Source: Defluviitaleaceae bacterium (GTDB taxonomy: Bacteria > Bacillota_I > Bacilli_A > MOL361 > Turicibacteraceae). From it: a DNA stretch of 46,833 nt. The stretch is from positions 1-46,833 of the forward strand of contig WRKJ01000100.1 in NCBI GenBank assembly GCA_009778135.1, given 5' to 3'. The translations under genes were made by a program, and so were the position numbers. The notes under the pieces are model-generated. The model saw only the letters and a list, made by a program, of their open reading frames with translations, was not told the origin of the DNA and searched no databases. Of the stretch, positions 29,313 through 39,747 are shown in pieces (position 1 is the stretch's first letter; each line of letters begins with the position of its first letter).

Positions 29313-29332
29313 TATTCCGACTAAACATTTAA

Positions 29333-29500
29333 ATATTTAGAGGTAGCAATGCAAATGAGTAACATGTAGGAGGCGGCATCCCATGATCACATGTGAAAGG
29401 TAATCATTGCCGAACAAGTCGTGAAGGCATTCATGAGTTGTGGTATAATGGGAAATACGCATTATACTCCCGCTTCGTCAAGGAGCGGTGGCGCTAGTTT
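29333..29500 (+). ncRNA. lysine riboswitch (L box)
   Basis: Binds lysine and controls the lysine operon. Conserved core pieces appear in order: AGAGGTAGC at 29339, AGTAAC and GGAGGC, GTGAAAGG near 29393, GCCGAA near 29409, then GTATAATG (29443-29450) pairing with CATTATAC (29460-29467). The P3 hairpin TCGTGAA/TTCATGA and the P5 hairpin CCGCTTC/GGAGCGG can also be drawn. The element lies between the promoter and a terminator before lysA, exactly where L boxes occur. I did not model the P1 helix in detail. Confidence 0.93.
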
Positions 29501-29528
29501 AATAAAGACATCTGTCTTTTATCCAACC

Positions 29529-37599: not shown

Positions 37600-38172
37600 T
37601 TAGTCGTGATTTAAATCATCATAATCCTTTTTCAAAATGCTATAAATCACTGAGTCAGATATTCCATGGCTATGACTCCAAGTAGATTCTCTCAACGTTC
37701 CTTCATATTTAAATCCGCATTTACTCAAAACTTTTCCTGAATTGGAATTTTCTGGAAGAAAATTAGCTGCGATTCGATTAACCTTAACTTCCTCAAAAAA
37801 GAATTTAACAATAGCTGCTAATGCCTCTGATGTAATTCCTTTATTCCACCATTGTTTTCCAATGCAATATCCGATTGCTAATGATTTAACTAAGTCATTT
37901 TTTCCAACTACACTAATACTGCCAACGGGTTCATTACTTTCCTCTTTCATAACAATAGCCCATTGATAGTATGCCATATTTTTATATTCGGATATCCAAT
38001 TCATTAATAGTTGCTTAGTTTCATCAATATTTTCATGAAATTCCCATGAAAGATACTTGGTTACTTCTGGGTTGTTTGCCCAGTTATTGTACATTGAGTT
38101 TGCATCATCGGTTGTAAACGGTCGTAATGATAACCTTTTAGTTTCAATCTTCTTTGTTCCTTTATGCTCCAC
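37600..38172 (-). CDS. GNAT acetyltransferase, RimJ/RimL type
   Basis: Acetyl-CoA-dependent N-acetyltransferase of about 190 residues. The segments KKIETKRLSLRPFTTDDANSM (N-terminus), VGSISVV, AIGYCIGKQWWNKGITSEAL (acetyl-CoA site), RIAANFLPENSNSGKVLSKCGF and YEGTLRES follow the RimJ/RimL order. An ATG at 38196 overlaps the previous stop but has no good ribosome site. The GTG at 38172 lies 7 bases after AGAGGAAGG and gives a natural N-terminus. Base composition is much more AT-rich than the chromosome around, so transfer is likely. Substrate unknown (protein N-terminus, antibiotic or small amine). Confidence 0.88.
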   Translation of the reverse strand: MEHKGTKKIETKRLSLRPFTTDDANSMYNNWANNPEVTKYLSWEFHENIDETKQLLMNWISEYKNMAYYQWAIVMKEESNEPVGSISVVGKNDLVKSLAIGYCIGKQWWNKGITSEALAAIVKFFFEEVKVNRIAANFLPENSNSGKVLSKCGFKYEGTLRESTWSHSHGISDSVIYSILKKDYDDLNHD

Positions 38173-38195
38173 GATGACACCTTCCTCTGAAATCA

Positions 38196-38864
38196 TTAGC
38201 CAGCATTGCTAGTAACAATTAGTTTAGGAATTTCATTTTGATAGTTAGTATTATCAGGTATTTCACTTTTTTCAAATGCTTTTCTACGCGCTTTACAAGC
38301 ACCACATATTCCACATTGAATTATTTGTGCACTTCCACATGAACGAGTTTTTTCTAATTCCACACCCATTTTTTCTCCAAGTAGAATAACGTCTGATTTT
38401 GACATTTCAATAAGTGGTGTAAGTATATTAAACGCTCTTCCTGTTTCTATTTCTACTAACTTAGCCAAAGTATCAAAATAATCTCTTGTATTTTCTGGAT
38501 AAGCGGTTCTATCGTCATCATGAATACCATAATAAATAGTATTTATTCCACGCTGTAAGGCATATGTTATAGCAGTGCTCAAGCCGAATAACGTTCCACC
38601 ATATTTACCCGCAAAAGTATTTGGATGCATCTCAAGCCATTCTATTGGTCCCCTAAATGGTGTAATTGGTGGAACTGAAAAGTTAAGAAACGAAATTGAT
38701 GATTCTTCGTTGCTTACTAAATTTGGAACAGACTGTGAGATATCCAACTCCTCTAATTTGACCCCTAACTTTTCCATAAAATATGATGCGGTTTTTTCTT
38801 CGATAGCACCGGCTTCTTGATCACTTTTTATTACTAAAGCTGAGAAATCAATATGTTCTATCAA
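38196..38864 (-). CDS. QueC-family protein lacking the PP-loop
   Basis: Resembles the C-terminal three quarters of QueC (7-cyano-7-deazaguanine synthase): YGGTLFGLSTAITYALQRG, YYGIHDDDRTAYPENTRDYFDTL, and the zinc cysteines Cys176, Cys184, Cys187, Cys190 (C-x7-C-x2-C-x2-C). The N-terminal SGGxDS ATP-binding loop of QueC is absent, and the start is a TTG at 38864 without a ribosome site. No lost SGG-like codons were found upstream. The gene begins about 2-3 bases after the predicted transcript start, so it would be leaderless unless a later start is used. About 222 residues. AT-rich. Probably an inactive relic or a repurposed fragment. Confidence 0.75.
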   Translation of the reverse strand: MIEHIDFSALVIKSDQEAGAIEEKTASYFMEKLGVKLEELDISQSVPNLVSNEESSISFLNFSVPPITPFRGPIEWLEMHPNTFAGKYGGTLFGLSTAITYALQRGINTIYYGIHDDDRTAYPENTRDYFDTLAKLVEIETGRAFNILTPLIEMSKSDVILLGEKMGVELEKTRSCGSAQIIQCGICGACKARRKAFEKSEIPDNTNYQNEIPKLIVTSNAG

Positions 38865-38872
38865 TTTTTTAA

Positions 38873-38901
38873 ATTATATATCAAACCTACACCTTTGTCA
38901 A
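38873..38901 (-). promoter_or_regulatory. perfect consensus promoter upstream of the QueC-like gene
   Basis: On the minus strand TTGACA (38896-38901), exactly 17 bases, TATAAT (38873-38878). It is the strongest promoter in the window by match. The predicted start near 38866 is almost at the TTG start codon. Confidence 0.85.
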
Positions 38902-39000
38902 CAAAAAACACTCGACAAAAATCGACAAACTAACTACAGTACCCACCTATTTTAAACACTCATTTTCAACTATAGTCTTACCTAAACGGACGTAAAACTC

Positions 39001-39136
39001 TATGTCTAAGTGTTGAGGTACTCTCCCTTTGCCTTGTGTAATTTCTATTCTAGCATCACCTTGTGCTTAGCAGTTAGTAGAGACGAGTACCTCCGCTACG
39101 GACTTTCACCGTTTAGAACATAGCCATGTCTGGCAC
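39001..39136 (-). mobile_element. group II intron 5' fragment (domain I)
   Basis: On the minus strand from 39136: GTGCC, then GACATGGC, ACGGTGAAAGTCCGT, and GCTAAGCACAAGGTG, in the order of group II intron domain I (compare the Oceanobacillus-type GUGUGCC...CAUGG...GGUGAGAGUCC). Stems can be drawn: CTATGT with ACATAG, TCTAA with TTAGA, GAGGTACTC with GAGTACCTC. It lies 2 bases after a terminator hairpin, the known target of class C introns. No domain V, intron-encoded protein or 3' end was seen, so it is truncated. The left limit is uncertain. Confidence 0.7.
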
Positions 39137-39138
39137 AG

Positions 39139-39178
39139 AAGTAAAATAGATTCGACCTAAATCGCATCTATTTTACTT
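39139..39178 (-). terminator. terminator of the acyl-CoA/carbonic anhydrase operon
   Basis: Arms 39139-39151 and 39166-39178 (AAGTAAAATAGAT / ATCTATTTTACTT) form a 13-bp stem, overlapping the stop of the gamma-carbonic-anhydrase-like gene. The T-tract normally expected after it is interrupted by the group II intron fragment that begins at 39136. Confidence 0.7.
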
Positions 39179-39691
39179 TTTAGTTTGCATCTCTTTATAA
39201 ATCTTCGCTTTTTCTTGATAAATCCTAACACCAGCAATCATAGGGGCTTTATCTGCTTCTGTCAACGCTCTAATCACGCGCGCCGGACTTCCCATTGCGA
39301 GTGTGTTAGGTGGGATTTTTTTCCCCGGTGCGACCACACTTCCCGCACCAATTAAAGCACCTTCACCAATTTCAGCCCCATCTAAAATGATCGCACCCAT
39401 TCCAATCAGTGCACCTTTTCGAACCGTTGCGGCATGGACAATACAAGTGTGTCCAATGGTGACATCATCTTCAATGATGAGGGGCATGTTCGTATTTTGA
39501 TGCAACACGGAATTGTCTTGAATATTAACGCGGTCTCCGATAATGGTCGGTGCCATGTCACCTCGGATCGCCGTATTGAACCAAATGGAACAGTTTTCTC
39601 CAATGGTGACATCACCCGTAATCGTGACATAATCAGCAACAAAAGCCGACTCAGCAATTTGTGGTGACTTTCCTTTAAATGGATAGATCAT
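39173..39691 (-). CDS. gamma-carbonic-anhydrase-like hexapeptide-repeat protein (YrdA group)
   Basis: Left-handed beta-helix protein of about 172 residues with the LbH repeat pattern (VTIGENCSIWFNTAIRGD, IGDRVNIQDNSVLHQN, IIEDDVTIGHTCIVHAATV). Putative zinc histidines are His64, His81 and His86. Family activity ranges from carbonic anhydrase to unknown; those in acyl-CoA clusters are sometimes CaiE/PaaY-like thioesterase-linked proteins. The frame opens at 39700 but the ATG at 39691 has an AAAGGA site 9 bases upstream. Last gene of the cluster. Confidence 0.88.
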   Translation of the reverse strand: MIYPFKGKSPQIAESAFVADYVTITGDVTIGENCSIWFNTAIRGDMAPTIIGDRVNIQDNSVLHQNTNMPLIIEDDVTIGHTCIVHAATVRKGALIGMGAIILDGAEIGEGALIGAGSVVAPGKKIPPNTLAMGSPARVIRALTEADKAPMIAGVRIYQEKAKIYKEMQTKK

Positions 39692-39747
39692 CAGCATCAT
39701 TCCTTTATTTTAAAATGTGTTACCCTTTTATGTGACCTCAACTATCG

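Follow-up and report, generated by a model that had tools for sequence, protein, structure and literature searches.

A probable 5' remnant of a class C group II intron behind the hairpin of a hexapeptide-repeat protein gene

Gene order and hairpin at the locus

The features described here lie on the minus strand of the window, by which we mean the whole stretch of 46,833 nucleotides that was analysed. Upstream of the insertion is a gene for a hexapeptide-repeat (gamma-carbonic-anhydrase-like) protein (39173-39700, minus strand; Pfam PF00132, E 4.4e-22), and at its end a 13-bp hairpin (39139-39178, minus strand) whose first arm takes in the last codon and the stop codon. The stem is perfect, with 39178-39166 pairing with 39151-39139, and folding gives it -17.0 kcal/mol (z -6.8). 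From this fold, and from a position like that of the hairpins 5' of intact relatives, we take it to be the insertion site (5' exon) of an intron. An earlier note on this DNA had described a 13-bp terminator stem that is not followed by the T-tract to be expected there. The missing T-tract is confirmed and the strong fold speaks for the terminator, but the hairpin begins within a codon, is AT-rich and was not called by a terminator scan. Its position, the strength of its stem and the presence of the intron suggest that it is a terminator nonetheless.

Downstream on the same strand, a junction region without similarity to introns (38865-39002, minus strand) leads to a QueC-like ORF that lacks its N-terminal part (38196-38864, minus strand; Pfam QueC match 37-208 of 210), which is followed by a GNAT acetyltransferase ORF (37600-38196, minus strand; Pfam PF13302, E 7.5e-35). 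The first 36 Pfam positions of the QueC-like ORF, where the ATP-binding loop belongs, are absent, and its match to PDB 3bl5 starts at residue 44. The ATP-loop motif SGGxDS is also absent from the three forward frames upstream of the ORF. Within the junction, a sigma-70-like promoter (38901-38873, minus strand; TTGACA-17-TATAAT, 12/12) is directed at the QueC-like ORF. Elsewhere in the window there is a lysine riboswitch (29330-29504, plus strand; Rfam RF00168, 93.8 bits).

Intron sequence directly 3' of the hairpin

The sequence that starts directly 3' of the hairpin on the minus strand is CTGTGCCAGACATGGCTATGTTCTAAACGGTGAAAGTCC. Its first 87 nt (39138-39052, minus strand) match the 5' end of a class C group II intron, that is the start of domain I, in nhmmer and cmsearch searches and by comparison with a copy in the same genome that is 80% identical. 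The pattern of this firm part of the remnant is GUGCCAGACAUGGC ... GGUGAAAGUCC ... CAAGGUG. The motifs GTGCC, CATGG and GGTGAAAGTCC are present on the minus strand from 39136, and a scan of both strands of the 46.8-kb window finds the combined motif CATGG-N8..20-GGTGAAAGTCC nowhere else. The earlier note had the intron begin at 39136, two bases after the stem. Alignment to RT-bearing introns instead places the first intron base at 39138, abutting the stem; this base is a C, where the relatives have a G (GTGTGCC). With the stem ending at 39139 and the intron starting at 39138, the element shows the class C trait of insertion right after an intrinsic-terminator-like hairpin.

The models used in these searches come from relatives. 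Searching 395 genomes of the class for the RT yielded 30 loci, 12 of which carry the 5' motif. These 12 introns, each adjoining a group II RT gene, were selected through the core motif CATG-N-TGAAAGTCC and represent the motif-bearing subset (12 of 30 RT loci). For the covariance model their first 130 nt were aligned, and for the profile HMM 480 nt of these introns were used; none of the 12 comes from the genome studied here. Using the profile HMM, nhmmer found 39137-39052 (25.5 bits, E 3.5e-8), the next match in the window having an E of 5.6. Using the covariance model, cmsearch found 39138-39003 (41.8 bits, E 6.7e-9), the next match in the window reaching 13 bits. Both searches recover, at the place described earlier, the minus-strand domain I pattern of a group II intron, and they show the remnant to begin like a class C intron, both in its 5' end sequence and in the start of domain I. 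A covariance-model match on contig C32 was rejected as chance, as it lies within an asparagine-synthase-like coding sequence, and so were weak BLASTN matches in two further genomes (G010 and G322), which on reading resembled ordinary coding or AT-rich DNA. BLASTN of the remnant in plasmids and phages gave no match, nor did an IUPAC pattern search of viral contigs.

Next to the firm part, 39051-39003 (minus strand) is probably a degenerate continuation of domain I with an uncertain boundary. The covariance-model match that points to it contains a 22-nt stretch that is not resolved, and sequence-only searches (BLASTN, nhmmer) gave no match to this segment, making the case for it weaker than for 39138-39052. 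Beyond 39003 no intron-like sequence was found. The extent to 38996 proposed previously is therefore firm for 39138-39052, weaker as far as 39003 and not borne out for 39002-38996, which is without any intron sign.

A search of the window with Rfam gave no group II match (D1D4 models and Intron_gpII) at the gathering threshold or at E <= 10. This was the check that had been suggested for the domain I reading, with a missing hit to count as its refutation, and it failed with Rfam but succeeded with our own class C model. The Rfam class C model (RF02001, group-II-D1D4-3) starts 82 nt inside an intact intron (933 versus 851, L034), and for this reason Rfam is blind to the firm remnant. With the opening ~80 bases of class C introns outside the reach of the Rfam group II models, 5' relics of this kind go unannotated.

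Relatives and further intron pieces

A relative from the same family (G002, contig C136) has an intact class C intron composed of a terminator, GTGTGCCCGGCATGGGCGAGAACTTGAGGGTGAAAGTCC, a 465-aa RT and a domain V ending GTGTGAGAGG; in Rfam it is matched by group-II-D1D4-3, group-II-D1D4-1 and Intron_gpII. A relative from the same class (G321) has an RT-bearing intron, located behind a hairpin, whose 5' end is 82% identical to the window over 54 nt. Both introns are among the 12 that carry the 5' motif. Eleven of these 12 training introns could be folded upstream, and nearly all of the 11 have a strong hairpin within 50 nt, L047 being a weak exception. Consistent with the earlier assignment to class C, the same 5' end is thus followed by an RT in relatives and is nearly always preceded by a hairpin.

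In the same-genus relative G001, the orthologous hexapeptide gene is conserved (70%) and the DNA behind it is intron-free but unrelated, so that it is not an exact empty site. No match to the remnant was found in this genome. The comparison of the same locus in relatives, which the earlier note had called for, therefore yields an intron-free gene end and no clean empty site in alignment; this state is consistent with a lineage-specific insertion. G001 also has a second, partial copy of the C-terminal end of the hexapeptide gene (contig C2, L084, 7541-7655), ~5.8 kb downstream of the full gene.

Whole-genome BLASTN revealed two further 5' copies in the genome studied here, on contigs C91 (80% over 85 nt) and C82 (88% over 40 nt), each directly behind a terminator-type hairpin with a T-run. 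The model search added a fourth copy on C58, likewise behind a hairpin. A match on C29 was left out of the 5' relics because the first ~70 intron bases are absent. The class C domain V-VI end is present in two copies, on C91 and C80, each 99% identical to the query, and the one on C91 lies 1.8 kb downstream of the 5' relic. Between the 5' end (990-1095) and the domain V-VI end (2793-2884) on this contig (L018, 990-2884) there is no RT but an FtsX-like permease ORF of 518 aa in antisense orientation. The C91 copy has kept ~100-130 nt of domain I but neither the bulk of this domain nor domains II-III, and the permease ORF may be a chance insertion into the relic. The second class C 3' end (C80, L020, 2500-3040, minus strand) is close to the ackA terminator, from which an IS66-like fragment separates it. 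The sole RT trace in the genome, a 55-aa fragment with stop codons (C80:16526-16693), sits at the start of the same stretch as this 3' end.

Two other contigs carry group II matches. On C47 (L021, 1997-2837, minus strand), ~840 nt are matched by Rfam group-II-D1D4-5 (110.8 bits) and Intron_gpII (69.2 bits), possibly representing an ORF-less group II intron of another class. C89 (L023, 2140-3900, minus strand) has a CRISPR array with the repeat GTCGCATCCTTCATGGGTGCGTGGATTGAAAT and, ~1.1 kb beyond the array, a match to group II domain V (40.5 bits) immediately before a 256-aa ORF. In more distant bacteria, class C 5' pieces without an RT in the fetched DNA were seen behind inverted repeats in Thiotrichaceae, Desulfobacterium and Cloacimonadota (L024 4203, L025 2370 and L026 709), and GTGTGCCAGACATGGC is identical in all three.

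Short 5' pieces with no RT close by are thus a repeated find: this genome has four and unrelated phyla have three, each of them directly behind an inverted repeat. Such recurrence is what one might see if the intron-derived fragment still served as a small functional RNA, perhaps one that gives the transcript of the upstream gene a structured 3' end or stabilises it, and the window copy could form a long helix of 14 bp in its minimum-free-energy fold (39032-39020 with 39094-39080). We nevertheless regard this as highly improbable. The fold of the whole remnant has a z-score of only -1.1, no better than shuffles, the copies within the genome are strongly diverged from each other and share no common 3' boundary, and the same-genus relative gave no match. 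Moreover, fragments of this kind are known from the literature to arise when an intron loses its 3' end (PMC4496777). It also seems very unlikely that the 5' pieces recurring behind terminators, here and in unrelated phyla, have been co-opted as mRNA 3'-end structures or as neutral landing sites for repeated insertion of accessory genes (QueC/GNAT, permeases).

Loss of the 3' part and comparison with known introns

No match to domain V (RF00029) was found on the window contig in a whole-genome search up to E 10, and this contig carries no copy of the genome's own domain V-VI sequence. The group II maturase domain GIIM was not found in the whole genome, and no group II protein domain is located near the remnant. 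The locus in the window therefore has neither the domain V/VI at the 3' end nor the intron-encoded RT/maturase of class C. With domain V and the RT missing, the element is a relic and not an active intron, as had been concluded earlier from the absence of domain V and the protein gene. As the remnant lacks both the catalytic domain V and a 3' splice site, neither splicing nor retromobility would be expected of it.

The QueC-like and GNAT genes come after the 5' end on the same strand, and on C91 both intron ends enclose the permease ORF in place of an RT. One could accordingly imagine the intron as a carrier with cargo genes in place of its RT, namely QueC-like and GNAT in the window and the permease on C91. 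This can hardly be right, however. A cargo-carrying intron in the window is rejected because no intron 3' end is present there, and the C91 copy, without most of the ribozyme, could not splice. In addition, the QueC-like gene is cut at its N-terminus, as expected at a deletion junction. That the 3' part of the intron and the 5' part of QueC are both missing at one junction fits a deletion.

Overall, the feature is very probably what remains, at the 5' end, of a class C group II intron retroelement whose 3' side has been deleted. Its homology, its place behind the hairpin, its missing parts and the sister relics in the genome are direct observations. An intact copy of ~1.9 kb, with ribozyme and RT, would have reverse-spliced into the DNA directly 3' of the hexapeptide-gene hairpin. 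Some later deletion or recombination would then have removed what followed in the ribozyme, including domains V-VI, as well as the RT gene and the start of the QueC-like gene. We infer this order of events, and the remnant presumably does nothing today. It is an ordinary genomic fossil, one of several decayed copies in the genome. The relics record a past invasion of the lineage by class C introns, an intact RT not being found in the genome, and the understanding of group II introns is unchanged by the remnant.

The feature fits two published properties of group II introns. Intrinsic transcription terminators are the insertion sites of class C (IIC) introns (PMC4424553; PMC8919778), and group II introns have been reported to fragment and lose their 3' end, as discussed for RmInt1 of Sinorhizobium meliloti (PMC4496777). 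Like the window copy, fragmented introns of the RmInt1 type have kept the 5' part and lost the 3' part; they are without mobility, as would be expected of the window copy too. In contrast to the window copy, RmInt1 is not known to belong to class C or to target terminators. Compared with the intact class C (IIC) intron of the family relative G002 (C136; Firmicutes), the window copy is without domains II-VI, the RT and the remainder of domain I, and it starts with C rather than G. Both nevertheless have the same GUGUGCC..GCAUGG..GGUGAAAGUCC pattern and the same position directly 3' of a terminator hairpin.
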